Shown here in pieces: positions 22,335-57,487 of a stretch of DNA of 64,000 bases. The stretch is taken from positions 124,001 to 188,000 of the forward strand of contig BQMF02000114.1 in assembly GCA_027922465.2 (NCBI GenBank), in the 5' to 3' direction. Both the position numbers and the translations under genes were made by a program. Source of the DNA: Turritopsis dohrnii. Lineage: Eukaryota > Cnidaria > Hydrozoa > Anthoathecata > Oceaniidae. Each line of letters starts with the position of its first letter. The stretch's first letter is position 1. The notes beneath the pieces are model-generated. The model worked only from the letters and a program-made list of their open reading frames with translations. It made no database searches and was not told where the DNA came from.

Positions 22335-24110
22335 TTAATAATTTCTTAAATTGAGGAACATATTCAATATCTGAAAGAATATTCGATGATGAAACGAGAG
22401 CATTCCACAAGTGTGGTCCACGATATGAAATATTAAATTGACTGAGCTTATTTTTGAACATCGGCTTAAGCAAAATTCTTGAATTTGGAGTTGTATATTT
22501 GTTTTGGGGTTTGAGCGTGTAAAGACTATGAAAAAAACAGATGGCGATTGCTTCGTTTGCACTTTAACATAAAAATTAGAGTTTGGAAGATGTTAAGTTC
22601 GTAGAGTGTTGGTATGAAGGATTCTGCAAAGAGAGGCTTTGTATGAGTAAAACGATCTTTATTGTGTATAACTCTGATGGCATGCTTCTGACGTTGGAAA
22701 AGAGATGTTAGTTTACTTTTTTGTGTGCTAGCCCATATGACATTTGCATAGCTTAAGTGACTATGTACAAAAGAATAATAAAGTTGCTTTAATAGATGTT
22801 TGTTCAAAATGGTTTTAGCTTTATACAATGCGCCAATTCCTCTGGATACTTTTGAGTGCACGTACTCAATTTGATTCGTCCATGTCAGATTTTCATCTAC
22901 GTAAATTCCAAGGAACTTTGTGACTGTTTGTCTGGTTATTTTTGTGTTATTTATTTCTAATAGTGGAAGATTTAATTCTATTGTATTTTTTTTCTTGGAA
23001 GTATGGAAAAGTGTAAAGTTTGTTTTCTTAGCATTTAAAGATAATTTATTTACCTGAAACCACAACGCTACATTTTTTAATTCTTTGTTCATGTTATTAA
23101 AAAGTTTAGGAATATCATTGTCTGAAAGGAACAGATTTGTATCGTCAGCAAACATAACTGGTTTTAGTATTGACGAACAGTTTACAAAATCGTTTACATA
23201 TATCAAAAATAGTAAAGGACCTAATATTGAACCCTGGGGTACTCCGCATGTCATATTTAATGCTTTAGTGATGTTATTGCTGCCATAAGTCACATGTTGT
23301 CTTCGATTTGTAAGGTAATTTTTCAAAATATTGTATGAATTTCCTCTGATGCCATAGTATTTAAGTTTTTTAAGCAAAATTTTATAATCAACTGAGTCAA
23401 ATGCTTTTGACAAATCAATGAATATTCCAAGTGTATATTATCCATTGTTAAAAGATTCAGTGATGTCATTAACCAGTTGAAGTATTGCATGCTCTGTAGA
23501 TACATTTTTCTGAAATCCAAATTGTTTATGGAAGAGTAAATCTTTTGAGGTTAGATGATCGTAAATTCTATTATATAGGATTCTTTCTAGAATCTTTGAA
23601 AAAGCTGGCAGTACAGATATAGGTCTATAGTTGTTTATAGTTGTTTTGTCACCTGCTTTGAAGCTAGGTACAATTTTTGCTATCTTGAAGGGCTCGGGAA
23701 AAACTCCTTCGTTGAAGCAATTTTTGAAAATATTATATAATGGCTTCCTTATCTGTTCATACACGTCTAAAATTATATCACCACTTATGCCATCGATCCC
23801 AGTTGCCTTGTTTCTACTTAAGCTCTTATAGGCAAGTTCAAATTCGTGAAGAGTAATTTCTTTATTTTCTAATCTTGAATCACTTTCTTTCAGATAGTCT
23901 TCAAATGTTTTATTTGTTATTGGAATCTTTTCTGCTAATTTTGGGCCTATATTTTCAAAAAAGGAATTGAATTTTTCTGCGATTTCTTTTTTATCATAAA
24001 AGGTTTCGTCATCCGTTTCAATCATGTTTGGTAAAGAATTTGAGTTTGTCTGACATTTTCCAGTAATTTCTTTCATTAATTCTCAAGTTTTCTTGCTTGT
24101 ACAGTTATTA
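22335..24110 (-). pseudogene. LINE ORF2, reverse transcriptase part
   Basis: From the 5' end: ELMKEITGKCQTNSNSLPNM, SRNKATGIDGISGDIILDVY, KTTINNYRPISVLPAFSKIL, QFGFQKNVSTEHAILQLVND, IFIDLSKAFDSVDYKIL, TCGVPQGSILGPLLFLIYVN and VMFADDTNLFLSDN (the F-ADD catalytic box). A C-terminal region follows, with NKLSQFNISYRGPHLWNAL. Breaks: TGA at the position of a conserved Trp just before ELMKEITG (near 24085), TAA after ESFNNG (near 23436), and a frameshift near 22530. The copy is dead. Confidence 0.9.
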
Positions 24111-24960
24111 ACTCTCCTGCCTAGTTTATATCTTAATTATATTTCATTCTGCTTGTATGTTAGATCCAAACATTCAATAACATAATAAAGTTGAATCGAA
24201 TGATCTTTATCCATGTTTGGATCTTTTAACTCTTGATCAGTGAATATTTTGTTGGCCTTGGTGGAAATGGTTGTCTTGGATTGTCCCATACCTGGTTGTG
24301 GATTCCAAACAAATGATGTTGAGGTCGTTGGTGCTGCTGCTATCCTGAACCTGCATGCACACACCCACACTGCTACACCTACTACTGCCGCCCCAAGCTG
24401 GAGCGTCCAAGGATCGGGCTGAATGCCACCTCAGAGGACTGGAACGCATTCATACGTCGATGGGACACTTTCCGAGTTGGATCCGGGATACCAGCCCCTG
24501 CTGAGTCAACACAACTTCTGGAGTGCGCTCATATCCAACTGATGAATATTATTCTCCGTGCTGACCCCACATTCACCACCCGTCCGATTGCTGACGCGTT
24601 GCAGATCTTCTTGTCCCACGCCGTTGTCCCGGTCGCGCTTGGGGTTCTGCGTTCTGAACTCGCCGCCATGAAGCAAGATCCCGAGGAACCCTTCCGCATC
24701 TTTGCTGCCCGAGTTCAGGGGAAGGCTGAAACTTGTGAGTTTCACACCGAGTTCGCTGGAATCTGCTCTGGATGCAATGCTCCATTTGGTGGGCTCGTTT
24801 ATTATACAGACTGTGCGGTACGGGATGTTTTACTTAATGGAATCGCTGATACCGATATACGGAGGGAAGCACTGAGCGCAGAACGCATACAAGAGAAATC
24901 TGTGAATGAAGTCATCGCGCTCATCGAAGGCAAGGAAATGGCCAGAAACGCAAATAAAAA
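24111..24960 (+). pseudogene. LTR-retrotransposon gag-like fragment
   Basis: The plus strand reads DCPIPGCGFQTNDVEVVGAA and AAILNLHAHTH, then in a second frame RPRIGLNATSEDWNAFIRRW, DTFRVGSGIPAPAESTQLLE, FRIFAARVQGKAETCEFH and DTDIRREALSAERIQEKSVN. A zinc-finger-like start, a W..F..RW block and an F..R..GKA..C block match gag polyproteins of Ty3-type elements common in cnidarians. Base composition is markedly more GC-rich than its neighbours, which supports a separate origin. There is a frameshift near 24365. No protease, RT or LTRs are found. It fills the gap between the LINE RT part and the outer HECT element. Confidence 0.6.
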
Positions 24961-26040
24961 ACAAAGCCATGGAATTGTATTTTGATCAGAAAGGTTGTAA
25001 TAATGTTATGGAACATTCATTGGAGTGCATCAAATCTTTACGTGGACCAAATGGGGAAACACTATGTGAAGACACAAATCTATGGGAATATATCGAAAAA
25101 AAGGGATTTTTTTTTATCAAAAAGTTGGTTTGTCCTATCAACTAAATCTCTGGACTATGAAGATGACGTATCCCCAGATTTCATTTCTCTCAATCCTCAA
25201 CCTGTTGCTGAAAGTGACCAATCTTTGTCTTCAGCATGTGGATTCGAAGATGAAGCTGAGAGGCATATCTGTCCAGTATGTTCTTGTACTTATAACATTG
25301 GAAACACGTGTCTTATCTGCACTCAAAACAATGAGTATAATGCATCATGCATTAATGATAGGAACTTGAGCTTGTTTGACGGACTTGATGAGCCATGTGT
25401 TAACTCTGATAATGATGATATTGAACAGTTACCAGTAGCTGAGTTGCGAGAAAGAAGGCTCCAAAGTTTAGCTGCAGTGACGCCAAGAAATAATGCTGAT
25501 GTTGACGCTTCTTTAGACACAAATATAAACTCAAAAACACACAAGGCAAAAATACATCGCATGACAGTGAAAAAAGATCTAATGAACTTATTCATGACCA
25601 AAGAAGTAAGATTTATTATATCTTTCATTAATTTAGTCTAATCAACCTGAAAATTTGCATAGCATTTTCTCCAGCAACTGCTTTATTTCACTAATGTCAA
25701 GCATAAACATACCAAGATGCTCTTCAAATGAGAAAACTTTTTTGTTTACAATTTGGATGTTAGATTGAAATTTTGTATGCTTTCTGAATAATACAGGAAA
25801 TTGTTGTGAATTATTACATGTGTTTTATTAGATTGTTTTATAAATAGTAAAAACAAAAGCATGCTGAACAAATGTGGATGATCATAACATTTTTCTATAG
25901 ATCCAAATGTCGGATGTTATTCAATACACATGGATTGATCCACGTGGCCAAGAAGAAGAAGGAGTTGGATCAGGTGTATCTCGTGATGTATACTCTTCAT
26001 TATGGAGTGAAGTATATATGGAAGCCGAGAAGGGTCAAGC

Positions 26041-26170
26041 CATGAATATATTATCAAATCTAGGAATATATTTCAAAATCGAGAAATATTTTTCAAATCC
26101 AGAAATGTATTTCAAAATCGAGAAATATGTTTTACAATCTAGAAATATTTTTTAAATCGAGAAATTTTTT
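26041..26170. repeat. subterminal repeats, left side of inner element
   Basis: Units like ATATTTCAAAATCGAGAAAT are repeated about five times. The same words occur inverted at 33330-33540. They are likely transposase binding sites, by analogy with other DNA transposons. Confidence 0.75.
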
Positions 26171-26469
26171 TACTGGTAAATTCGTTTACCGGCAAACAAG
26201 CGAAAACAATCTAATTAAAGATGGCTGCACCCGCAAGCATGCATTGCACCTCCTGTGGCAAAAAAATAGGGTCTTCTGACCTATTCTGCATGTATTGTGG
26301 CAGAAAAAAAGAAAAAAACGATGAACACCCCAAAAATGATGAACCTCTGCTGACTTTAATGGACTTTCAAAAAATGAAAACTGAAGAAAGAACTTCAAGA
26401 TTTGTTGGTAAAAGAAGAAGGAAGGACAGCCCCTCTCCTCCTCTAGCATTTCCAAAGATTGCCGTGTAA

Positions 26470-27450
26470 AATCCTGACGTCATAAAAAAAATTCGAAAAA
26501 TAACTCAACTTCAACAGTTATTATCTTTCTGTAGGATCGCGCTAGCCGATTCCAGTTTTTTTTATTGTTTTCCTTGATTTTTTGGCTTTCCGGCAATATC
26601 TAATTTGCCCAGTATGCTATTCGGTGAAATACTTAATTTACGGCTGAGAAATGATCTGATTTGCCGGTTTTCCCGCCTGTGGCCACGAAAATATTCGACC
26701 AGGAATCACTTTGATGTTCAGCGCGGTGGATTGGCTTGTTGAATTGATGTCAAACTTTGTAGATTATGTAAAAAGGGCTGGGAAATCCAAAAATCACCCG
26801 CAAAAGTTGTTTCCGATAGCCCTTCTATGATATTTCATTAATTTTCTGTTATATCAGTTTCAATTTTTTCGCTCAAAAAAATTTTTTTCTCTTGCGGTCC
26901 AAAAACTATCACTTCAATCCTTCCTCTTTCCAACTGTGTAATTATTTTCCTGTAAATATCACTCAATCCAAACTGTTTTAGGGGACAAGAGGAAAGGCAC
27001 CTCAAAGTTGGATATGTCACCCCTGATTTCAATGTTTTCCTTTTCCGAAAAAATATGAACGATTGAAGTTTCAAAATGGCAGATTTTGGTATAAATAAAC
27101 ATTTGACAGGAGTAAAATAAGTTGTATATTCATCACCTTTGTTTTTAAATGATCCATTATTGGTATGTTTTATCATTCACAAAGCCTTTACTTTCCTTTT
27201 AAATATATAACAGTTTCTTATATGAAGATAAGGTATTTCTATTATTAATGATTATAATAAAAAATGTTGTTTCTTAATTAATTTAATATCTTACCGAAAT
27301 TAACTGTTTATTGTCTGTAGACCCAGATGTATCTATTATCAATGATTATTTGTCTAATAGTCAGTTTGCCCAATGAAACACAGAAACCAATGGAATTGGA
27401 TTTTGATATTATAATATACATGTTTTCATGATACCTCTTGTTTGTCGTCT
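26470..27450. other. intron 1 of inner HECT gene, no other gene seen
   Basis: Sequence between the zinc-ribbon exon and the minisatellite. Only short frames occur, and no splice-consistent coding exon was recognised. Confidence 0.5.
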
Positions 27451-28160
27451 CTTGATTTTACCCTGTTGTTAGGGAAAATTTGGAATAAATCTTGAAATTT
27501 ACTAGTATATATAAGCACCACACACCATATTTACTTATTTTCTGTTTAAACAGAGTCAAAAGTTGTCAGTTGGCCTCATTTCTTGTATTGTAACTACTTG
27601 AAATGTGCATTTTGTCTTGATTTTACCCCGTTGCTAGGGAAAAATTTGGGGTAAATCATGAAATTCACTAGAATGTATAAGCACCAAACCTCATATTTAT
27701 TTATTTTCTGTTAATCAGAGTGAAAAGTTGTCAGGTGCCACTTTTCTTATATTGTAACAACTTAAAATGTGCATATTGTCTTCATTTTACCTCGTTGCTA
27801 GGGAAAATTTGGGGTAAATCTTGAAATTTACTAGTATATAAAAGCACCACACACCATATTTACTTATTTTCTGTTTAAACAGAGTCAAAAGTTGTCAGTT
27901 GTCCCATTTCTAGTATCGTAACTACTTGAAATGTGCATTTTGTCTTGATTTTACCCCGTCGCTAGGGAAAATTTGGGGTAAATCATGAAATTCACTAGAA
28001 TGTATAAGCACCACACCTCATATTTACTTATTTTCTGTCAACCAGAGTCAAAAGTTTTCCGTTGCCCCATTTCTAGTATTGTAAACTACTTGAAATGTGC
28101 ATTTTGTCTTCATTTTACCCCGTTGCTAGGGAAAATTTGGGGTAAACCTTGAAGTAATGT
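27451..28160. repeat. 164-bp minisatellite in the inner HECT intron
   Basis: The phrase TTTTACCCCGTTGCTAGGGA recurs near 27460, 27625, 27790, 27952 and 28115, each followed by GGGGTAAAT-type and TATAAGCACCACAC-type words. Spacing is 163-166 bp over about 4.3 copies. Copies differ by several per cent, so it is not a recent expansion. Confidence 0.88.
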
Positions 28161-31100
28161 GTAATTTGGTTCCGCAAACTTAATGTTTCTTTGCTCCACC
28201 TTAGTTTGAAGTAGTAAAGTATATGTTTTTTGGAGCTTCTGCCTGTAAATTCTTGTTTTAGCCCTATTTTATGTGTTGTTGCCATGGGGGAGATCCCTGT
28301 TGCTATGGATAGTATTAACAGAAAATAAATATTGCTCTTTGTAGTAAATGGTTATTCAAATATACGCTGAAAATATTAAGTCCAAATTATGAAGTGTTAA
28401 AAAATTATGACAATATTCTTTAACCTTATTTTCAAGAAAAAATCCAATGTTTTGGTGCCATTAGACATATTATTACAGTTGAAAACTATAGGGAAAATAT
28501 CTAACAGAATGTCAAGAATTGCCCCAAATTTCCAATACTAAATTTCCTATAACTTCGGAACGGCTTATCGTTGAGAGGTGTATGACCCCTCATTTTTTTT
28601 CTCTTGAAAAGATCTATCCAATCAGCATAGTTTCATGGCTTTTTGACAAATTTGATTTTTTGGTTTGGAAATGCTACCTCCTCCTCCACCTCCTTCCTCC
28701 CATTCTGCATATGGTCATAAATCGAAAGTGAAGGGTTTCATGAACAAGAAATCCACGGAGACTGCACTCATTAATGTTGGTATTATCAGAGAACATGAAA
28801 ACACTGGGCAATTACAAATAGTTAGAGGAAGCAAGCTACCTTTACAGGTTTCAAGAAAAGCCAATGCCAACACAATATTGAATCTCGCTTTAAAGAAACA
28901 TGCTAATCAGGACCAGTTTTTTTGTGGATTGGAAAAGTACATACTGCGTTACCCAGACCAAAAGTTGGTAGAGACTATCAGGGTCTGATTTACCATTTAC
29001 ACTTGAAAGATACAAAAAAGACCTTGGCAAACCATACTCCAAAATTGATTTGTACATTTGTAAAAAGCATGACTTGGATGCAAGAAAACTGAGTGTTTTG
29101 AAGTATCAGCTGCAAGCTCCATTAGAAGAAGACCCACAGTATTTTAATGACAGTGGTAATGAGCATGAGTTAGGACACTTGTTGTTCAAAGAAACAGATT
29201 TCCATGATCCAAATTCATTACTAATAAACAGTTGTTTCGATATAGGTGCTAATGATGATAACTCTCCTGTAACTTCTGTGCTTTCAAAACAAAATATACA
29301 AAGCAAAGATACTGTTACACCATCATGCTCTGTAAATTTGACAAACTTAAAAAGCATTGATATTAATTGTGGTATGTGCCTAATTTGTAACAAAAAGTTT
29401 CCATTTTCAGTGATTGAAAAGCATGCTGATGGCTGTTTGCAGAAAAAGCAAAAACCAATTATCTATTCTATAGACGATGAAGATGATCCTTTTGATGAAA
29501 GCGATTCCATTGACCCTGTTGTTGAAGATGAAAATACTACTAGCAATATAGACACTAACATATAATTTAATATGAAACAAGTTCAAGCAGTTTTAAAAAA
29601 ATGCCATATAGAAAATGGTGAAATTCTTTTAAATGTACGACGTCATTATGAATTTGAAGACTTCATGAGATTTTTTGGGAAAACTTGGAATAAGAATAAG
29701 ATTGATAAAACTTATAGAATCGCTTATATTGGTGAGCCCGCAATAGACACTGGTGGAGTTTCAAGGGAATTTTATTCAGGTATACAAAAACATATGTTTT
29801 TTTTAGTGTATTAAGAATTTAAATAACCTTGTTTTCATGTTAATCTAACTTCTTTATTTCTATTTAGTCTTTTTTTTTTCATTTCTTTTTATACAGTGTT
29901 ATTGCTTCTTGATTTAGAAGCAATAAAATCAATCAAGCAAATTTATTTTACTGGAAATGATGTCAGTGATTATATATATACCAAACTTTGGTACTTTAAG
30001 TGTAACAGACGGTACTGCCAAAGCGGTTGGACATCTTTTTGCTGCTACACTAGTTAATGGAGGGCCAGCTCCTGCATTCTTTGCTGACTGGATATTTGAT
30101 TATATAACTTGTGGGCTAACAGCTGCATTAAAGTCTTGTCCAAAAGAAATATCTGAAATATCACCACTGAAAGCAACATATGATAAGGTATATTATATAA
30201 ATTTTACATTTTTCAACTAAAATAGTTGTGGCTATTTCACACTAGATTTTCTTATATCAACCATCTTTCAAGTTTATTTAGTTTTCTATTTATGTGATCA
30301 TGTACATGTGTCAACTGCAATGACCATCGATTTTAGTGTTTTTTTGGCTTAGTGACTTTAAGTACTGTCATGATAGAAATGAAAAGAGAAAAGAAAATAT
30401 ATTGAACTACTGTGCACTTCTCTAATGAAAGGGGCGGTTTGTCTGTTGATCTAATAACATACTGAAATTATGTCTTAATGAATAAGTAATTTGATTTAGG
30501 TCTTTCTTGCAAAATCTGATTTGGAATTAACATCGATACTTTCAACAGATGAGGGTTTAGATTTATTAGAGCGTATTGGATATAGAGGAGATCCAAGAAA
30601 GACAACAATGCAAAAGAAAAATTCTATTTTAGAGTAAGAAATACTGACATTTCTTGATTTAATAATCTAATAATCTCATCTAATGTATATGTTATGGTGT
30701 AAGCACTTGTAAATTTCTATGGAAATGTTTCCTCCTGTTAAGATAGTATGTACTGATAAAAACTTCTATTAATCTGTCTTAATTGGTTCTACTTAAAATA
30801 TCCATTCATTGTATTTTGTGCTTTCTTTATAGGTCAATTATAGTAAAAGAAACACTGGAACCCTTACTTCCAGTTATTCAGGAGATAAGTAACGGTTTGC
30901 AGTGCTATAATGTGTGTCAATTACTAAAGCAAAATGGAGCAATTATGCACCCTGTATTTTGTCGCAATCAGAAGTTTGTTTGGCAATATGATGATTTCAT
31001 CAGTTTTCTTAAACCACAATTTAGTGAAGATGCCACCAATAAAAAAACATTAGAGGTAACAACATACAAGGCCCTATTAGATGTTGCTGAATATTGTTTT

Positions 31101-31968
31101 AATTCTGGTATGTATTTAATTGCTATATTTTTTGTTTTGTCTTAAAGATAATGTATTCTCCATATTGTAAATTCGATTAGTTAGGGAAGAAATTTTGTGG
31201 GAAGAAAATATATTGGAAAATGTATCCAATTCAAAGTCCCTCAAAGAAAGGAAAATTGCTAATTCTGCAAAAAAAATCTGCTACTTTTTGATACCTAACT
31301 AACCAAATTACATATTTGTTGTTTAGATAATCCAGAGCTTTCATCTGAACAGTTAATTCAGTTCATAACTGGTTCACCAACATTGCCAGCACTAGGATTA
31401 CACAAAGATATAACTATTCACTTTATCCATGGATGTAACTCAACTAATGGTAAACCATGTAAATGTTTGCCAAGTGTCAGCACTTGCGATGTACAAGTAA
31501 ACCTTCCTGTACACATAGCATCAGAGGAATCCATGATGCAGGCTTTTTCAATGGCAGTGAGAGATGGTAGTTGGTTTGGACAACTGTAAATGTTTTACAA
31601 AATACCTTTGTTGTTGCATGACATAGTTATTTCGTTAAAGTTTTATTCATACCGTTCTGTTTTGTTAAGATTTTTCTGTTACTCTAATATATTCTAATAT
31701 AGGATGATATTTTGTTGATATTTGTTTTTAGTTCTTTTGTTTTTTGATAATAAAATGAGGGGGTGAGTCTCATCGTCAAATTTCGATAAATTGATTTTGG
31801 GGGTGAAAATTTAGAAAAAGTGGAATTTGACCTTCTTTCTATTACTGCTGTTATTATTTTATAGCACTGCATCTTTTACGTTACTGATTATGTTTGAGAT
31901 GTGAAAACGTTGTTTTTATTGTTTCAGGTTTTTAGATCTAAGCTATTTTTTCATTTGAAATATAAATT

Positions 31969-33237
31969 TTATTGTGCTGCAGAAAAGATAGTGTCATAAA
32001 TTGTTCTTGCTTCTATCCAATCACGTGGCGGCATTAAAATTCCTAATGCATTTACCAAATACTTGAAATAGTTATTCAATTCTTCATCAACTTCATTCAA
32101 AAGATTCTCTGCTTCACCATGAATATCCCTCTGGTTAATAATCCAATCAGTAACATTAGTGTTAACCCTCACACCACATTGTTGATAACCATAGAGTTCA
32201 GGAATACAATACATTTCATCAGGTATTCCACAAACTTTGGCTTGACGTGATTTTCTAATTAAATGAGAGTTCCACTCTAACTTCGCCTTATCCAGTTCAG
32301 CCTGCAAAAGATCTGAATATACAAACCAAGCGCATTCCATATGCAATCGGTTTCCAAGACGCAGAATGTCGTTTTGCACCATGTTTTTAAAATAATCTAT
32401 TATCCAAGAGGTGTAGGTTCTCTTATAATGGGACCAAAGGTTTTCGATTCTTTGGTTTGCCTGTGATGTACCATATTTGTGTGCATTGGTATCATTATGA
32501 AGAAAAGCGTGAATACTTGCCATTAACTCATTTTCTGTACCGCAATCTGTTTTAAGGACGTCTGGGCTAACTTGGACATTTTCGACGGCATTGAGATAAA
32601 AATGAGCCGGGATGACTGGGTTGTTATTACTTCGTCAAACTTTTAGCCAAATAACCTTTCGTGAAAATCCATCGACACAACCATGTATAGGAAATCCATA
32701 TGGCTTAAGTTTGTCGTAGCCGTCCGTATGCCATACTGCATTCGGTCCAGGAGATGTATAAATCCTTCGGTAAAGTTTCCTGGCTCTTCTGTTTAGAGAC
32801 TCTCGTGGATTAATATCTCGTACAATGTTCATAACGTCATCACGATTAACTATTATACCATAAGCAACACGTAATTTATGCCAAATACTACGATATCCCT
32901 TTATTCCTGATGAAGTACTTAGCTCTGACTCTATAATTTTGCGCACAGAAGAATCGATTGCCGGTCTCCCTTTTCTTTTTAATCCAGATGCTTTTAGGTA
33001 ACGTTTTAACGTACTTAAGCTAATTTCTATGCCATGGTATCTCTTGAGAATCAGTATAATTCTCTTATATTGAGTACCTTTTATAAAGAAATGACGGATA
33101 AGTTCTTCTGTTGTGGTGTTTTCTTTCACAAGTATTTCCTCGTTTGCTAAATGTCTTCGTTGTGTACCACAATTGGTACAAAACAACTCAACTTGAAAAA
33201 ACTCTCTTCCACATCGAAAGCAAAATCTAACGTGCAT
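31969..33237 (-). pseudogene. rve-type integrase/transposase of the inner element
   Basis: The protein starts MHVRFCFRCGREFFQVELFC with a zinc ribbon, then a helix-turn-helix region (GTQYKRIILILKRYHGIEIS, STLKRYLKASGLKRKGRP). The core is VWHTDGYDKLKPYGFPIHGC (first Asp), VLKTDCGTENEL (second Asp) and ANQRIENLWSHYKR (Glu), with 33 residues between the last two. A C-terminal domain follows, with SRQAKVCGIPDEMYCIPELY. One in-frame TGA (near 32635, after FSRKVIWLKV) is the only break in 422 codons. The enzyme would cut and join element ends. It converges on the HECT gene, with about 380 bp between stops. Confidence 0.88.
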
Positions 33238-33329
33238 TATGATGATTAACTCCTGTAAGTAAAAATTACTTACAAGAAGAAAAGCACGTGTTTAATAAAT
33301 TCAACCAGCAAAAATTCAAATATTGAATC

Positions 33330-33540
33330 TTAAATTATTTTTCTAGATTTGAAAAATATTTTGGAACATAATATCTCAAAAACATTTTCTAGCCCTAGCT
33401 TTCAAAAAAAGACAATATTAAAAATATTTTTCTGGATTTCAATTTATTTATTTTTCTTGATTTTAAAATATATTTCTTGACTTTGAAAGATATTTCCTGA
33501 TTTCAAATATATTTCTGGATCTCAAAATTATTTATCGAAT
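33330..33540. repeat. subterminal repeats, right side of inner element
   Basis: Words like GATTTCAAATATATTTCTGG and GATTTTAAAATATATTTCTT repeat about eight times with drift. They are the inverted counterpart of 26041-26170. Confidence 0.75.
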
Positions 33541-34861
33541 GACCCTTGTCGGCTTCCGTAAGTATATGATTCTTTTTTATATGGGGAACAAGAGCGAGTG
33601 CCGCAAGTGCTTCATTATCTCTACAAAAAAGAATGGTATGCCATTGCTGTGATCATTTTGAAAGGTTCTATCGACACTGGATATTTCCCTATAGTTTTGT
33701 GTAAAGCCTTCTTGTATTTTTGTTTGTTTGGAGATGTATCAGAGGATTTGTTAATATCCTCATTCCTGAAATACTTGTCACCAGATGAAAGTGAATTGGT
33801 GGCAAAAGTTTTTGATGATTGTGAAAATAAAGATGTCATTCAGAGTGAAGAATTTGCTGAGTTTTTAGAACAATTCAATTGTAAAACGTTAGTGAAAGAA
33901 TCTAATGTTAAATTGGTTATCACAGAAATAGCTCGTCAAGAGCTTATTCAGAAAAGTCATCTGATGGCTGCATGCTGGCAAGATCAGTTCTCAGAGCTGC
34001 GTACAAAACCTCAGTTTTCCTCCGTGGATAATGTTATAAAGTTTTACAATGACATGGAGCCGACTACGAAGAAAGTTGTTGGCCTGTTTAAAGATTCTCA
34101 TCCAGCAAATGGTGCAGAACGAGATTCCTTAAATTATTTGAAAAGATACATTCGGGGATTGGAAACTGTTTTGCTCAAAAAGCTGTTGAAATTTTTAACA
34201 GGGTCAGACATAATGGTAGTGGACAAAATAGAAATTGTCTTTATAAAACCAGAATCAAATTTTTCTCGAAGACCAATTGCCCACACATGCACACCATGTT
34301 TAGAACTTCCATCAACATATAACAGTTACTGTGAACTACGTGAAGAGTTCAGCAATGTTTTGCAGTTATCAGAATGGGAAATGGGAATTGTTTAAAATTT
34401 TCTTTAAAATCTTATTTGCTTAGTACATAGTTATGTTTTCAATAGTTAACCATCAGGTTTTGGTTGGTTTTTCTTTCTGTTCACGTCTAAGTAAAAGAAA
34501 TGCATTTTAATAATGAAGAGAAAATAGTGGATCTGCTTTTTTGTTATTGTTTGTAACAGGCAAATATCTTGTAACATTATTTTTGTCTTTTTATGTTCTT
34601 CTGTATTAATCTCACATATCAAGCTCTTATATAGTTCTAGTTCTTCAGTCTTTATATTTTATCGAGTATTATTTTTACCAGGATGATTTGTTGTTTATGA
34701 AAGAATTACGTGGAATATCATGAGTTATGCTTGCGCTACTTAATCTGCATTGGAAAACTTACTCTGTAGGGGACTATACACGAAAACTAGATTGTTTGTG
34801 TTTGTTGAGCATTAGAGTTATCTTTACATCAGTAACAAATTTCATACAAACCATTTGCTAT

Positions 34862-35989
34862 CTACGAATACTGTTCAATTTTCGATAACAAATGAATATA
34901 AAGACCTAGCGCTTCTGAAACATCGCACGGTGGGTGTAATCCATCTTGACGCATTAAGATTTCTGCGAATTCTTGGAATTCTGGAGAAACATCTGCTGCT
35001 GTTGTTTGGTTAACACATGGATAAAATTGTTCGATTTCATCCACTTGATATAAGTGCGGTAAATAATACATTACGTCAGGACGTCCCCGAGGACCACGAT
35101 TCCGGCTTTTAGATATTATATGCGCGTTCCACTCATCTCGGACAGATTTTAACTCCTTACGTATCAAGGTCATGAAACAAAAACGAATACAATCGACCAG
35201 TACAGGATCAGTGCTTGTAAAAATGTTAAGATCCACCATATCTCTGAAGAAAGACTTCCACCATCCTATCCGATCACGTTGGAGAACAGACCAATAGGAC
35301 TCGATTCTCTGATTTTCAGGAGATGAAATTACGCTGAAAGAGCCAATGCTATCTTGACAGTTATTAAGACTACGAAGGTAGACATGCATTGGTTCAATTA
35401 AGGAATGCTCGGTTCCATCATCTGCTTTAATCTGGTTAGGTATGCCATTTAGTTCCCTCGACGAATCCAAATAAAATTTTGCAATTATTTCCGGAACTTT
35501 GTTTGAAGGACCTACTTCAAGCCATATTAGCTTTCTCGAAAAACCATCGATGCAGCCATGTATTCAGAAACCGTATGGCTTCAGTTTATCATGGCCATCT
35601 ATGTGCCACGCATAATTAGGACCTCTCGAAACATATTTACGTCGACTAAGTCTCCTCATTCGTCGTAAACTCACCCCTTCTGGATCCAGACGATTCATTA
35701 TTTGTCTTACATCTTCGTGACGACAAATTATTGATTTTGACATCATGACAGCCCTCATTCTTCGATAGCCTATCACCGAACCACTACCACTCAGCTCCGT
35801 TTGAATGGCCTGGAGAAGCTCTTGATGAGAAGTGCGAATCCCAAGCAATGATCGTCGTTTTAATCCATGTTGACGAAGTCTTCTTTTTAGGGTCGACAAA
35901 CTTATAATGATTCCATATACATGTTTTAAGAGCTCTATGATCTCAGAATATGAAAACCCTCTCGTAAAATAATCTTTTATCACATCCAT
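34862..35989 (-). pseudogene. rve-type integrase/transposase of the outer element
   Basis: From 35989: MDVIKDYFTRGFSYSEIIEL, then STLKRRLRQHGLKRRS, YAWHIDGHDKLKPYGF (first Asp), IKADDGTEHSLIE (second Asp) and ENQRIESYWSVLQRDR (Glu), ending LLSKIEQYS at 34862. It aligns over its length with the inner integrase but is clearly diverged. A TGA near 35564, right after KLKPYGF, breaks the frame once. The N-terminal zinc ribbon seen in the inner copy is not visible. The protein otherwise reads through. It lies convergent to the outer HECT gene, the same layout as the inner element. Confidence 0.87.
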
Positions 35990-36109
35990 CCTAAGTGTTG
36001 TATTTTGTTTGCTGATGTTGTGCCTGTCGTGTGGTGGTGGGTTAATACAACGCTAAAGGCTGAATGATGTTTATTGAAAGTTTTATCACTAAAATTTTTA
36101 TTTATTTCT

Positions 36110-36240
36110 AAAAGGTTTATTATAGAAGTTCCAAATATTTTTTGTGGAAATCTTTATAAAAAATTTTTATAGAAGCCTGGAAATTTGTTATAGAAGTTTG
36201 GAAATTTGTTATAGAAGTTTGACCCTTCAGTGCCATCGTA
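36110..36240. repeat. outer element right end with subterminal repeats
   Basis: Units of TTATAGAAGTTTGGAAATTTG repeat three to four times before the terminus GACCCTTCAGTGCCATCGTA ending at 36240. The arrangement matches the inner element's ends although the repeat sequence differs. LINE coding resumes at 36241. Confidence 0.7.
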
Positions 36241-37160
36241 TGTTTGTTATAGAGTTCAGTAAAAACTTCAATAAAACCTTCATATTGAGCATTAGCATTT
36301 AAAAGATTATCGAGAAAGTCCCAGTTTGTACGTTCTAAATCTTTTTTAAAATTAATTCTAGAGGATTTCTTATAGAGACGTTTTTTTATTTGTACGGAGT
36401 CTTTATTTTGAATGGAATAGTTGAACGAGACGAATATGGGAAAGTGATCTGATATATCTGATTTTATTATGCCTTTAGTTAAATATTTGTCATAGAGACG
36501 GTTTGTGAAAATATTATCGATAAGTGTGGCTGATTCTTTCGTAACTCTCGTAGGTTTATTTATCAATGGTATTATGCTGTGAGAAAAAGCATTATTACAA
36601 AAATCAGTGACTGTTTTGTCTTTCTGATAGTTTAAACAGTTTAAGTTAAAATCACCAATAACAAATAGCATTTTATTTTCTTTACTTGATGCATTATAGA
36701 TTTTTTCAATGTATTCACTGAAGAACTTTGCATTTCCATTTGGAGGTCTGTAACAGGAAGTAATTAAGGTGTTTTTAAAATTTTTAACAATTTCGATAGT
36801 TAAGATTTCTTTGTCGGCATCAGAAGCCGAAAGCTCGTTGCGCATTCGGTAATTCAAATGATTTTTGATGTAAATTAAAACACCGCCACCCTTTTTATTT
36901 GTTTTTCTTTCAAAAGGAATAGAATTATAATGCTTCAAATGATATAACGAATTATTTCGCAATTCGAGATCATTACACCAGGTTTCAGTTAAACAAATGA
37001 TATTAAAACAGGAATTTGATTCTTCTAAAAGCTCTCGAAAATTATCAAAATTTTTCTTTATGCTTCTAATATTCATATGAAACATAGTTAGACTATCTTT
37101 TTGAATAACTTTCTCCAACGTATTTTTGACCTGATTCTGTAAAATGTAGGGTGTTTCCAA
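36241..37160 (-). pseudogene. LINE ORF2, apurinic endonuclease part
   Basis: FHMNIRSIKKNFDNFRELLE, NIICLTETWCNDLE, RKTNKKGGGVLIYIKNHLNY, SCYRPPNGNAKFF, FVIGDFNLNCLNYQ, SATLIDNIFTNRL and SDISDHFPIFVSF are the ordered motifs of an APE-type LINE endonuclease, including the N, E, D-N and S-D-H active-site elements. The frame runs out into foreign sequence at 36240, where the HECT plus integrase element begins. The part between endonuclease and RT has been lost or cannot be recognised. Confidence 0.88.
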
Positions 37161-37248: not shown

Positions 37249-37796
37249 TCAAAATTCTTCTCTTTCCAATACCTTTGCCTTTTCTTTATAGTTAAGAAAT
37301 TTAACTATTATCGTTCTGCTTTTCTTTTCTCCATCTTCATCTTTTACAGTCTTCCCGGTACGATGTGCTCTTTCAATTACGAATTCTTCCGTCATTCCTA
37401 TTTCATTCAAAATCACCTCCTTCACAGCTTTTTCAGTTTCTTCCCATGTCTCGTTTTCTTTTTCCTTCACTCCTTCAATTCTGAGATTGTTTCGTCTTCT
37501 TCTGTCTTCTAAATCAGACAATTTTTCCTTTATAGTTTCGTTTTCTTTTTTTCTCTCCTTAGTAATTTCTTTCTTAATTTGACAATCCACTTCTTCTAAT
37601 TTGCTTTCCACCATTTGACTGTGGAATTGCATCGAGCTTTTTAGTTCTTCTATTTTTTTTTTCTGCAGCGCGTTTTCGATTTTCATTTCTTCCATTCTCT
37701 TTTCCATGCTTTCCATCCTTCCGTTAAATACGTTTAAAATAGTTTGTTCATGAATTTTTATAATCTCTTGCACTTGTGCAAAGGTGAAAAATTCTG
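37249..37796 (-). pseudogene. LINE ORF1 (coiled coil plus RRM-like)
   Basis: The sequence starts EFFTFAQVQEIIKIHEQTIL, followed by a long charged coiled coil (EKRMEEMKIENALQKKKIEE and ESKLEEVDCQIKKEITKERK). Then comes RRRRNNLRIEGVKEKENETW, IERAHRTGKTVKDEDGEKK and RTIIVKFLNYKEKAKVL, the pattern of a Transposase_22/L1-ORF1-like RNA-binding domain. The initiating Met is lost at the LINE/capsid junction or lies just upstream, and a TGA ends the frame after EREEF near 37249. Such proteins coat LINE RNA. Confidence 0.8.
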
Positions 37797-38581
37797 CTTT
37801 TGGAGGTGGACGAATTCATCATGATATTTTTCCTCAAGGGAGATTAATCATCAACTCTTTACCGTTGAGAATTACTTTACATAGAAACAAAAATGATTTT
37901 TCGTTAATGTCTGGAGCAGAAAATCCACAATACAAAATTGTAAATACAGAATCTGTGTTACGTATACGAAAAGTTCAATTGACACCACACAAGTTTATGG
38001 AAATTCAACAAAATCTCGAAAAAGAACCTATAGTGTATCCCTTGAATCGTGCAGATGTGCGTATGCACTCTGTTGCCGCTGGTCTTACTTTACTCAATTG
38101 GGATAATGCATTTCAAGGACAATTACCAAACCGTGTTTTTATCGGAATGGTGGATAGTGTGAGTTACACAGGACGATATAATCGCAATCCTTTCAATTTC
38201 AAACCCTTTTCAGTAAGCAAACTGGGAGTATTTATAAATGGAGAATCTCTACCTGCTCAACCTATGAGATTTAATTTTGAACAAGATCATTATTTGGAAG
38301 GTTATCATAGTTTATTCACAACAACTGGCAAATCTGCTCGTGATGAAGGAATTGATATAAATAGAAGAGAATGTAAAAACGGTTATACGTTATTTGGATT
38401 TGATGTTTCACCAGCTACGTGTCATGGAGGACATCAAGAAATTGTGAAAAGAGGAGCACTTCGAGTTGAAATTGAATTTTCCGTACCACTTCCGAATACG
38501 ATTACCGTGTTATTGTATGCAGATTTTGATAATTCATTGTCAGTGGATAAAGCGAGAAACGTATTGAAGAACTATTAAAAA

Positions 38582-51762: not shown

Positions 51763-54700
51763 ACTCCTCCTGGAGAAGGTATCCAAGGGAATCTTCCTAG
51801 CTGGCTTCTTGATCCTATACCTTCAACTATTAGAAAGTCAGAAGTACAGAAACTTGGCATATGGACTGAAATCCGTCTCTTCATTTCCTCCACGTTTGTT
51901 GATACACATGCCGAAAGAGATATTTTGATCAAACATGTTATACCCAACATTAATCGAAAGTTAGCTGGGCGTTTAATTCGCGTAGTTCCAGTAGATTTGC
52001 GTTGGGGCGTTCTTGCTGAAGAAAGCAAAGACTGCAAAACAATCCAGAAGACATGTTTGAATCAAATCGACAAATGCAGACGATCAGTAGCAGAAACGCC
52101 GTGGTTTATTGGTTTGCGCACTGAAAGATATGGATGGGTTCAGAACGAACTGATGCCAAGCAATGGTTTTGAAAAGCCTGAACTTTATTCTTGGATTGAC
52201 AAATTTAATAACAATGTCAGTATTACTTCTCTAGAATGTATGCATGCTGTACAAGTTCCAAAAGAGTTACCACCTTCTCCCACTGTTTTCTTTTATGAAA
52301 GAGTTCTTGAGAATCCAGAAAACATCGAAGAAAACTTAAAATGGTTGCTCGATTTCGAGTATGTGGGACCAAACACCGAACTAGATAGCAATGTACAATT
52401 TCAATATGTTCGTACGGAAAACGCTGAGAAGTACAAAGTAGATCAAAGTGAATTAAATCAGATCTTAAGTAATTTATCCTACACCAATTATTCACAATAT
52501 CAATCTCGTTACAATAAAGGAGGAGCTCGTTACACTTGCAAAAGAGAAAACGCTAAAAGCTTTGGCGTTGCTTACGTGGATGGCCTTCAAAAGTTTCAAG
52601 ACAAAGTCGAAGCAGATCTTTTGCACGCAATTCAGATGAATTTTGAAAGAGCTGATAATGGGGAAGTACCTCAATGTAAATTGGATAACATACATCATGA
52701 AGTAAACATTCAAGACAAAGCATCCACATTTGTTGGAAGGACACAGCTGCTTGAGACTGGAATAGCTTACTGCACTAACAAATCGTCTGAAAGTAACCAT
52801 AACGTTATGGTCATTCATGGAGAGCCAGGTTGCGGAAAGTCTGGATTGTTGTCTGCGATTTCACAAGTGTGCTTGACAGAAATACCAAAGAATGGAGATT
52901 TCTTATTTACACACGTCGTAGATTCTTCTCCTGGATCCAACATTTTGGAACAAATGCTGAAACGACTTCAACTTAATTTACGGCATTATCGTAAAGAACT
53001 TGGTGAGGTTGATCTGCCACTAGAATGTTCAGCTTCAGCCTATGAGTTGAAAAGACAACATCATGAATTTCTAGAGGAGACTGCAAATAAGTATCCCGAT
53101 AAACAGTTTGTTGTAATTGTAGACGCAGTTAATCAGATGCATGAGTCCCTACAAGCTTGGACAATGTGGTGGTTGCCACGTCAATCATACCCAAAAAATG
53201 TTCGGTTTATGATTACCACCTTAAACGAGGAACACGGAACATTTGAGAATGCCTGCAAAATATCACATAATGTCATCTGTGTTCCAGTAAAAGAAATGTG
53301 TGACGAAGACCTTCAGGAGATGGTTACCGCAACATTAGGCAGATTTAATAAGAAGTTAACAGTCACAGATGATCGAATACTAGGTAATCAGATGGAACTT
53401 CTTATATCAAAAAACAAATCACCAATATACATCACTGCAGCATGCGAGGCATTGCGAAAATTTGGTATTTTTGAGAAAGTTTCTGGATATATACAAAAAC
53501 TCCCAAAAAATGTACAAGATCTCTTCTCGTTTTTGCTTGATGAATGGAGTGAGGAATATGGAAAAGAAATTGTTGAAGATATCGCTGGATTCTTTTATGT
53601 TTCAAGAGAAGGTTTGCTAGAAAATGAAATTGATGATCTATTGCGATTCAAAGAAAATGCATTAAAAGGTCCCGATGGGCTCCTTTACCAATCATCGTTC
53701 AGCCGATTGTATGATTCTCTCAGCAGCTTTTTATCATCTGGTGGTGGTGGATATTTGCGCTTTTTCCATGATCAACTCAAGTATACTGTAAAGAAAAAGT
53801 ACATGGATGCAGAGGGAGCTGAACAATTGTTCCACGAGTGGTTGTTTAAGTTTTACTATGATATGATAGAAGAGCAGATCCAGTTGAAGCCTAACAAGGA
53901 ACCATGTGCTTACTATGAGCATGCACTGCAACAGATTGTCTATCATCAATTGCAATCAGTTCCACCAAAAGAATCGTTATCTTCTCTGCACCTTACACTT
54001 CGCAATTTATATTTTGTAAGAGAGCGTGTCACAAACAAACAAAAACACGTTTTGAATCAAGAATATATGGTTGCTATTGAAAAGAGCAATAATGACGAGG
54101 AGGTTTTGGCATTGAGGGAGTGGGCTCGGTTTGCTCAGATATACGCTTATGGAATTAATGAGTTTCCTGATTTCTGTTACAATATGGCAATCAACCAAAG
54201 TGCGACTTCCGAAGTTAGAATGGACACAGAGCAACTACCAGCACCAGTTTGGCAGACTAGTTTTCCATTCATATGGGAAAATAACCCTAATGAAAAAGAC
54301 CCGATGGTTTTAACGTATTCGTGTGGAATAAGGCCATTTTACAGTTATGTGAATTGTGTTGCGAGCACGCCGGCAGCTGATATATGCTGCGCTGCTACTG
54401 ACGATAGCGTTACAGTGATATTTGATCAGAGCAGTGGTGAAGTTTTACAGGAGTTGGAAGTTGAATGCTACTCTTTAGCATTATCTCCTTGTTTTGAAAG
54501 TGTCTGGATCGGAGAAGAGGAAGGTTTTGTTTCTCTCTGGGATGTTAAAATAGGAACGATGATTTCAAAGACAGAAGATCATTTAGATGGTTGCATTGTG
54601 TGGCTTGAACTGACAGATGAATGGCTGTTATGTGGAACTGGTTCTAAGAACCACGCAATATGTTGGGATAAATGCAAGAAACTTTCACAAATAGCCTTGT

Positions 54701-57487
54701 TCAATGTAAATGAGAAATGCTTCGTAAAGAAATGGAGCACACAATCGCCGGGGTTTTGCTTTTGTTATCATATAAATACAAAGTTGATATTCTCAGGCCA
54801 TAAAAGGTTCATTAAAGCTTGGAATTTGGAAGGAGATCTTCAATTCACTCTTGAGAGCGCTGGTGAGTGTGTTTACAGTCTATGTGCGCATCCAAATGAG
54901 GATATACTTTTGTCAGGATCAAGTGATTCAAATATCAGGCAATGGTCAATCACAAACCGAGAGCTATGGCATTCATTTTCCGATCCGTCTGAATCTAAGT
55001 GGGCATTTGGTGGAAATTGGTGCGTACAATATGATGCTCAAGGGACCTGCATCCTATCTACGGAATCTGATAGTCATAGCTTGAGAGTATACACTTTAGA
55101 AGGGATCCTTCAAGATGAAATGAAAGGACATAATGATTGTATAACATCGATTTTCCTCGTTCCAGGTACTTATAAATTTGTTTTGTTCTGATTTATCATC
55201 TCACAACTATTATGAATCATGTTAGTTTTCATATAACCTTAACTTTGCAGGTATTAACCGAGTGTTAACTGCTGACAGAACTGGAAAATTGATTTTGTGG
55301 AATTTGCCACCACTGCAAGAAAACAAATTCAAAAATTACTCGGAAAGTGTAAGTCCAGTTGACAACTAATAAAACATGCTTGATTTGGTAACACGTTGTG
55401 AATTCAATTTTTTTTATTTTACAGTTTGTTTTTTGCGAATTTCTGTCAAATGGTGATGAATACATAACGCTGTCAAAGAATTTCATTCGTGTATGGGAAA
55501 CGAATACCCATACGTTGGTGAGATCTGCTAGTCTCAAAAGTGAATCGGATTTCAGTTCTGGAGCTGTTCACCCATCAGAAGAGTACTTTGCCTTGGGAAA
55601 ACAAATGGATATTTACTGGTACAAGCTGTCTGATTTGGTCATGTCCCATTCCTTTAGAGGTGTCTTTTTCATGTTACTTTACATCCACATACATATGTGT
55701 ACGTGCATAACAGTCATAATAATCCAGTCATATATGACAACTAGCATCTACTTGTCCAAAAAACAAAGCGCCCCTGCTGAGCGGGTAGAGTAGTTGCACA
55801 GTCTGCTATTATACTAATTTACCTACTTTAACATAAATAATGATGCGATTTCATATATTGGATTACAAGGTGGTCTAAATGTTCATCTTAAAAACTGTTC
55901 ATCACTATCGTTACTTTACACTTTATAATCCGAAAAATGATAGTAATGCACGTACATAAGGTAACGAATAAACGCCACAGTGTATAACAAAATAGTCATA
56001 GTCCATCTTTTCCGTTGAAACTAAAATGCTAATATCAAATATAAAATTTTGAATCAACAAGTTACTTCAAATCGCAAATTATACAAAACCATGGATTATA
56101 CATTTGCAATGTAACAAACAGCTCAAACTGAAAATTGACGCACAAGTTTACACCAAAGTAAAAGAATTTAGTCGAAAACACCGCAGCTAAATTGATATAA
56201 TGTCAGCTTGACACAAATGTGAGTATGAAACTGTGAAACAAGAAGTTAAGAATTTGTATTGAGAAGATTTGAAACTTGTAACTCGAATGCTTGATGTGTT
56301 TATCCAGAAATTTATTCACTATTACGACATGGACGTACGAATACCAATATAAAAAAACAATCATCATCGAACTTGTTCTTATCTATTCTTCATTATAGCC
56401 CTTGACGTATCGACAATAGGAGATTTTGTCAGAGGTGCACTAAGGGAGATAGAATGTTGGATTCAAAAGATGCAGTTTTCGCCAGATGGCTCAAAGCTTG
56501 TAGTTTTGGAATTGAGAAATTTGGAACAAGAAAAAAGCCATGTGATAGTTTTTGATGTTACAGATATCATGGAGGCTAAACATCTTCTGTACAGGTAAGA
56601 ACAATAAAGTACGAAGAGCGTATCAATGGTTACATATGAAATGTTAAAGAACAGTTTGAAGGACAATTGAATAGCAACCTCAAAAGTTAATTATCTGTAG
56701 CTTCTACTATTGCAACGAATGACGTTATTCTTTGCTGCATGTAACTGTGTTTTTCCGATGTGTGTAAAGCCCCACAGTCATTCAGTTTATAGGAGTGCTA
56801 AACATTTGTTCGTACTTTATCGTGTCATAAATAATTTCCTCTCAATTAATCCATTTTATTCGTTGCTTTGAATTTTAGAGAGGGAGCTTTTGACTTCGAT
56901 ATCCATTCAGATAATATTCAAGTTGCAACATATGAAACATTCGGCATTCGGGTTTGGAATATTGTAACAGGAGATACATTTCATCATTTTGAAGATGGAC
57001 GTGGTCCCGTTCGATTCTTTCTGCAAACTCAAAGACTTTTATGCGGTGGTAATACCTTATTGGTATTTTTCTTTCAGAATTTCTAAATGTTTGAATTGTG
57101 TATTAAGTTATGTCATGCTACATTCAAAGAACGAATCAGTTCCTTTGACCAACAAAAAACTGTTGATACTTATTCTATTAAGATAATGGTGCCACATGGG
57201 TGATACGCGATTTGGACGACAACAGTAACATCATTACCTTAGCTGGTCAAATAGGTAATCACGTTAGTCCATACGAAAACGAATCATTGTTGGCATCAAC
57301 CGGAGAGGATCGCATCATTCGTGTATTTGATACGACTACTGGAAAATGTCTATACGGCTTTTTTCATTCCCAAGCAGAAAAGTACACATCTCTTGTCATT
57401 CATCCGTCAAACAAATTGATTCTGGCAGCTAACAGCAACGGAATTATCTATGCTTTGAAACCAGAACAATACTGCACTGATAACTAA
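51763..57487 (+). CDS. STAND NTPase with DUF4062, NACHT-like and WD40 regions (TEP1/NWD1-like), 5' partial
   Basis: Six exons join in frame: 51763-55165, 55251-55348, 55425-55659, 56399-56594, 56879-57048 and 57183-57487; all have GT/AG borders, and the summed length (4407 nt) divides by three, giving 1468 residues. DUF4062 opens it (IRLFISSTFVDTHAERDILI, PVDLRWGV, TPWFIGLRTERYGW). The P-loop is VIHGEPGCGKSGLL at about residue 350, and the Walker B is QFVVIVDAVNQM at about 450. A winged-helix-like stretch follows, then WD40 repeats from about residue 840 (EEEGFVSLWDVKIG, LLSGSSDSNIRQWSI, TGEDRIIRVFDTTTGKCLYG). This order is that of TEP1/NWD1-type signalling ATPases, in which WD40 propellers sense and the NTPase oligomerises. 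The first visible exon starts without a Met, so upstream exons lie outside or left of the tandem duplication. It is the only clear host gene here. Confidence 0.9.

Follow-up and report, generated by a model that had tools for sequence, protein, structure and literature searches.

Two nested transposons, each with a HECT and a transposase gene

The window examined here, a 64,000-nt stretch of Turritopsis dohrnii DNA (contig BQMF02000114.1), contains two transposons, one inside the other, each with a HECT-type ubiquitin ligase encoded on the plus strand and, convergent with it, an rve-type integrase, here called transposase, encoded on the minus strand (Table 1). An earlier note on this DNA had described this layout, and it holds for both elements. 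The note had also reported that the inner copy is flanked by an exact 6-bp target-site duplication (TSD), AGTATA, and that it lies in the HECT gene of the outer copy; both statements are correct. When the flanks of the inner element are joined with a single AGTATA, they reproduce the uninterrupted outer-type copy L042 at 59 of 60 bases.

The terminal inverted repeats (TIRs) of the inner element match at 19 of 21 bases, right end against left. A near-identical copy, L041, lies on another contig; the two align in two main blocks (98.7% and 99.6% identity) and two short blocks at the left end (99.0% and 92.5%). The extra length of the window copy comes from about 2.2 kb of foreign DNA that interrupts its first HECT exon. 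This insertion, a third level of nesting, has internal repeats and is probably a non-autonomous DNA element. Together with a small frame-shifting loss near 28980, it has damaged a gene that is intact in L041, where five coding exons separated by GT-AG introns encode a 759-aa protein. A structure model of the L041 exon places a zinc ribbon, a ubiquitin-like domain, a C2HC finger and the start of the HECT domain in exon 1. Alignment identifies D172, D231 and E265 as the core residues of the inner transposase, whose read-through protein matches Pfam family PF24764 with an E value of 2.9e-31.

The outer element is incomplete and, judged by position, the older of the two. It runs from 24952 to 36240, interrupted by the inner element, and has lost its left end: similarity to L042, a whole outer-type copy with perfect ends, starts at 24952, and the first 667 bp are absent. 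Its HECT gene lacks the start and loses its frame near 25110. Three of the four termini are thus present in the window. The related TAY termini that the earlier note had assigned to both copies were found at the two inner ends and at the outer right end, which is related to the inner ends without being identical to them; the outer left end is absent from the window.

Table 1. Features of the nested transposons (window positions).
Feature	Position	Strand	Remarks
Outer left remnant	24952..26016	+	99.3% identity to positions 668-1732 of the L042 element
Outer HECT exon 1 remnant	to about 25605	+	within 24952..26016; exon 2 starts at 25901
TSD, left of inner element	26011..26016	.	AGTATA
Inner transposon	26017..33560	.	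7544 bp including the foreign 2.2-kb insertion; defined by TIRs and TSD
Inner left TIR	26017..26037	+	TATGGAAGCCGAGAAGGGTCA, TAT...AAGGGTCA, 21 bp
Inner HECT exon 1	26221..29779	+	split by the foreign insertion at about 26444-28676, shifted near 28980; based on the open 440-aa L041 exon
Foreign insertion in inner HECT exon 1	26444..28676	.	boundaries approximate; outside the transposon's own makeup; ends TAGCATTTCCAAA / TTTGGAAATGCTA
Inner HECT exon 2	29897..30187	+	splice sites matching L041
Inner HECT exon 3	30500..30633	+	splice sites as in L041
Inner HECT exon 4	30833..31107	+	splice sites as in L041
Inner HECT exon 5	31327..31589	+	catalytic-cysteine motif PSVSTC, C-terminal WFGQL
Inner transposase	31969..33237	-	zinc ribbon, helix-turn-helix, rva_4/rve core, one in-frame TGA
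Inner right TIR	33540..33560	-	TACGGAAGCCGACAAGGGTCA, TAC...AAGGGTCA, 21 bp
TSD, right of inner element	33561..33566	.	exact repeat of the left TSD
Outer HECT exon 2, remainder	33562..34395	+	HECT domain, RRPIAHTC motif; Pfam HECT 5.1e-6 for the open reading frame alone
Outer transposase	34862..35989	-	DDE core, one in-frame TGA; PF24764 6.8e-30 for the read-through protein
Outer right TIR	36220..36240	-	TACGATGGCACTGAAGGGTCA; same as both ends of L042 and L043

HECT and transposase genes are paired across the genome

Two queries, one the outer HECT exon and the other the outer integrase cut to its C-terminal half, were run against the genome containing the window (435.9 Mb, 891 contigs). They gave 140 and 150 listed matches, respectively, the window copies included. 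These lists hold the best matches only, so misses are to be expected. A listed HECT match lay within 10 kb of 80 of the 150 integrase matches, 75 of them convergent and 5 on the same strand, while 70 had none listed. In 65 of the 75 convergent pairs the spacing was 376-1181 bp. Random placement of the sites gave a mean of 0.97 pairs, about 80 times fewer than observed. Conversely, 91 of the 140 HECT matches had a listed integrase within 10 kb. The inner HECT protein gave 100 listed matches in 38 clusters, of which 30 were convergent with a listed integrase at 10 kb or less, 1 was on the same strand and 7 had none; among the 101 listed inner-type integrase matches, 38 had a listed HECT in that range (35 convergent). 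With the Pfam integrase model, which listed 150 more distant matches, 17 had a listed HECT within that distance. A Pfam HECT search of the genome returned 139 matches, 113 of which were further than 10 kb from any listed integrase. The association of HECT with a convergent rve/DDE transposase is not due to chance.

Loci were then read individually. Thirty-eight (L003-L040, two being the window itself) were taken with 1.5-kb flanks, and BLAST identified HECT parts in 31 of them, N-terminal parts only in L005, L035 and L037. In L028, L039 and L040 a convergent HECT-like frame was found on reading the sequence. The L028 frame matches Pfam HECT with E = 2.7e-12; that of L040 stays under the Pfam cut-off (E = 0.02) and that of L039 has no Pfam match, and a profile built from other families recognizes them with E values of 1.3e-3 and 7.9e-4, respectively, each better than 2000 shuffled sequences. 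HECT was found 4.2 kb away at L010 and 2.0 kb away at L032. By eye, L008 adjoins a frame resembling a long interspersed nuclear element (LINE) and L033 resembles an internal deletion.

Six further integrase loci without a listed HECT (L054-L059) were picked across lineages, not at random, four from the Pfam list and two from the outer-type list. All six have a convergent HECT gene, above the Pfam cut-off in L054, L055 and L057 (5.5e-7, 8.4e-6 and 4.4e-12) and recognized by profile in L056, L058 and L059 (8e-10, 2e-16 and 1e-17), the last two being close to a training member of the profile, L054. Altogether, HECT was present at nine out of nine integrases that lacked it in the first similarity search and were then read. 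In the reverse direction, two HECT genes from the Pfam list without a listed integrase (C533 and C788) both proved to have a convergent one beside them (PF24764, E = 3.3e-32 and 1e-51). The earlier note had held that the pairing would be coincidental if most related integrases lacked HECT, or if HECT genes lay mainly outside element borders. In this genome the pairing withstands that test, and the sampled misses were paired in both directions.

Complete elements and their relation to IS3EU

Matched inverted ends with an exact 6-bp TSD delimit eight elements of six families: the inner element of the window (7544 bp), L041 (5494 bp, GATATT), L042 (4503 bp, GTTTTC), L043 (4750 bp, AAAAAT), L044 (3247 bp, GTTTTC), L045 (5146 bp, GTGACG), L058 (5317 bp, ATGCAT) and L060 (5077 bp, AACCTG). 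L058 is the least certain, with 17 of 20 end bases matched and a palindromic TSD, and L060 was already paired in the match lists. No clean ends were found in L046-L048 and L054-L057 by the finder, which accepted only TA ends with 6-bp repeats. The HECT gene lies between the ends in all eight elements, as its N-terminal half only in L044. The suggestion in the earlier note that the mobile unit includes HECT as a fixed part is upheld for this genome by these eight elements and by the 80 pairs among the 150 listed integrases.

The published description of IS3EU (PMC10045372) lists TA..TA termini, usually 6-bp duplications, and a DDE transposase related to those of IS3 and IS481 with no HHCC finger upstream. 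All eight elements have TAY ends and 6-bp TSDs, and the transposases have a PF24764/rve core with invariant D, D and E; the finger seen is of the CCCC, not the HHCC, type. Hence the elements likely belong to IS3EU, as judged against published descriptions rather than against Repbase sequences or by a tree; the earlier note had pointed to this resemblance, and it agrees with PMC10045372 and PMC12730594. What sets the present elements apart is a HECT ligase as the regular second gene; the word "ubiquitin" does not occur in the text of PMC10045372. Also close are the fungal TET+ IS3EU elements, which, according to PMC12730594, share 6-bp TSDs, TAYGG..CCRTA ends and a transposase accompanied by an enzyme gene in opposite orientation. 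Their hosts are fungi and their partner genes encode an alpha-kinase (the gene opposite to the transposase) and a TET/JBP dioxygenase instead of a ubiquitin ligase.

The ligase gene and its product

Pfam recognizes the HECT domain in the inner protein (6.3e-10), in the intact L042 protein that represents the outer type (1e-6), in L061 (6.5e-16) and in L062 (3.2e-16), as well as in L028; no Pfam match was obtained for L056, as for L039. In a fold comparison the L042 exon matches HECT domains. The catalytic cysteine occupies the expected site in all 25 C-lobes read, some of which were initially recognized through the cysteine motif itself; the preceding residue is threonine in 23 of them, alanine in L061 and valine in L060. 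The proteins resemble the cellular ligases Smurf1, E6AP and NEDD4 in the HECT fold, in the cysteine and, for about half of the C-lobes, in a phenylalanine at position -4 from the C-terminus. They differ from them in being transposon-encoded and in their N-terminal part, which is short and includes ubiquitin-like and zinc-finger domains, and identity in the fold alignments is only 9-16%.

Modules of the same type begin both partner proteins in two lineages. Zinc ribbons do so in L022, L029, L041 and L044. Of 17 inner-type loci scanned, these four are the ones in which a ribbon was seen on the HECT side; for most of the rest, the sequence scanned does not reach the beginning of the HECT gene. 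In L054 (C81) a SAM domain starts both the HECT protein (3.1e-7) and the transposase (4.5e-4). The transposases of L058 (C170) and L059 (C310) also have an N-terminal SAM domain; at L058 no such domain was found in the HECT partner.

Comparison between families gives the HECT exon a nonsynonymous divergence (dN) of 0.28-0.46, with a synonymous divergence (dS) that is saturated or 2.0-3.9 (seven loci, L048 and L051 having been filtered out). The corresponding dN for the transposase is 0.26-0.44, with saturated dS (eight loci). By these rates, purifying selection has acted between families on the HECT exon as it has on the transposase. The correlation between the distances of the two genes is 0.95 (15 pairs, six loci) and falls to 0.51 when one near-identical pair is left out. 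Going by the selection and distance figures, both genes have been retained over similar spans of time, which argues against recent, repeated capture; rare exchanges may have occurred.

Surroundings of the nested elements

A gag-like retroelement fragment (24320-24951; weak Pfam Gag_p24_C match, E = 0.067) directly adjoins the outer transposon where its left side is broken off. Minus-strand pieces of a non-LTR retrotransposon lie on either side, with a reverse transcriptase on the left (22526-24115; RVT_1, 5.4e-18) and an endonuclease on the right (36241-37160; Exo_endo_phos, 1.1e-11). The right end of the outer transposon falls inside the endonuclease frame, and the two pieces would be parts of one LINE. 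Further along the plus strand are an open frame of 264 aa (37784-38578), which matches nothing in Pfam and which we take to resemble proteins of Polinton/adintovirus-like elements, and another of 1088 aa (51925-55191), in which WD40 repeats accompany a NACHT/STAND-type ATPase region.

Discussion

We think it somewhat probable that these elements are DNA transposons of the IS3EU kind, autonomous and equipped with two genes, in which the ligase is old, maintained and active at the transposase-DNA complex. This proposal builds on the gene pair and its orientation, the ends and TSDs, the HECT fold with its conserved cysteine, the conservation between families and the type of module in common; recruitment, targets and the step of the cycle concerned are our extrapolation. 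The transposase gene, read inward from the right end, would yield an rve-clan DDE enzyme that cuts the TAY ends and joins them to the target across a 6-bp stagger. The ligase gene, read inward from the left end, would yield a HECT E3 enzyme whose HECT domain is preceded by a ubiquitin-like domain and zinc fingers. Pairing with one another is common among SAM domains, and zinc ribbons bind DNA or protein, so a common module could bring the ligase to the transposase; its presence on both partners in two lineages suggests that the ligase acts at the transposase-DNA complex, to which it would be recruited in some lineages by the N-terminal zinc ribbon or SAM domain. Once there, it might ubiquitylate the bound proteins, upon which the complex would be dismantled or host proteins removed, and repair would complete the insertion. 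More tentatively, since we give it somewhat less than an even chance, the HECT ligase may be the defining second gene of a deeply branched rve-type clade, in which the module tethers the element's ligase to the transposase and ubiquitylation by that ligase normally forms part of transposition or of the control of it.

Several observations weigh against this proposal. The SAM domain of the L054 transposase scores 21.0 bits against a Pfam cut-off of 23, the zinc ribbon of the inner transposase has a weak Pfam score, and by eye the outer, L056 and L060 families have no N-terminal module on either partner. Near pairs within families, which differ by few changes, have dN/dS ratios of 0.28 and 0.62 for HECT and 0.33 and 0.68 for the transposase, indicating weaker constraint, and the correlation of distances leans on the near-identical pair. 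The phenylalanine at -4, which is needed in E6AP, is found in 12 of the 25 C-lobes and is missing from the entire outer-type lineage, L057 and L060; L060 also has an in-frame stop ahead of the C-lobe. Finally, L044 (C63) and the related L037 (C79) keep the N-terminal half of the ligase gene without the HECT lobe. L044, whose ligase remnant comprises the zinc ribbon, ubiquitin-like and C2HC part, has intact ends and an exact 6-bp TSD, and therefore the HECT lobe is not needed in cis. Such a half may be a competitor or may be mobilized in trans.

The earlier note had suggested that a ligase carried by a transposon may modify host silencing or repair factors. The ligase could alternatively act apart from the transposase, as a factor that counters silencing or repair by ubiquitylating host proteins and so lets the element escape repression, in the manner proposed for TET/JBP in fungal IS3EU. 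The partner genes of those elements, as given in PMC12730594, speak for this explanation, which asks only that selection on the element maintain the ligase; we nonetheless find it rather unlikely, as it leaves unexplained why zinc ribbons or SAM domains occur on both partners of the same element. A non-catalytic scaffold or regulator, for which ligase activity is dispensable, would fit the HECT-less remnant in L044 and the 13 of 25 C-lobes lacking the phenylalanine. Retention of the cysteine in every C-lobe across very deep divergence, together with purifying selection on the HECT exon resembling that on the transposase, makes such a role improbable. That the proximity of host HECT genes to integrases is accidental, or that single elements acquired such genes on repeated occasions, might be argued from the many Pfam HECT matches in the genome that have no listed integrase nearby. 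Both such genes sampled had a convergent integrase, co-location exceeds the random mean about 80-fold and the HECT gene lies inside the ends of eight elements, so that we regard this explanation as barely tenable.

Relatives of both proteins occur in other cnidarians. A Hydra transposase is 63% identical to the inner transposase, HECT proteins of Hydra vulgaris, Hydractinia symbiolongicarpus and Clytia hemisphaerica are 37-58% identical to the inner or outer HECT, and the octocoral Dendronephthya has a transposase homologue. All are annotated only as "uncharacterized protein". Pieces of PF24764-type integrase are also present in two contigs deposited as sequence of a sponge's bacterial symbiont (L001, LWTN01000118.1; L002, LWTN01000133.1), where they are probably host DNA in a symbiont assembly.

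To our knowledge, no DNA transposon is known in which a HECT-type ubiquitin ligase of its own is a regular component. No description of the HECT-transposase pairing was found in our searches of the open-licence literature; it may have been described in other publications or in Repbase notes. PMC12062965 does not contain "HECT" in its main text, and the publications found that join a HECT domain with a DNA transposon deal with a giant-virus HECT protein and with apoptosis domains.

In conclusion, the elements in this genome that pair a transposase with a HECT ligase retaining its catalytic cysteine are numerous and diverse, which suggests that ubiquitin tagging is part of their life in the cell. 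Should the pairing extend beyond this genome, it would offer a natural system in which to study the control of transposase complexes and of host repression by ubiquitin. A portion of the hydrozoan HECT proteins now called "uncharacterized" would then be ligases of mobile elements and not of the host, which would affect gene counts and the family trees of these ligases.

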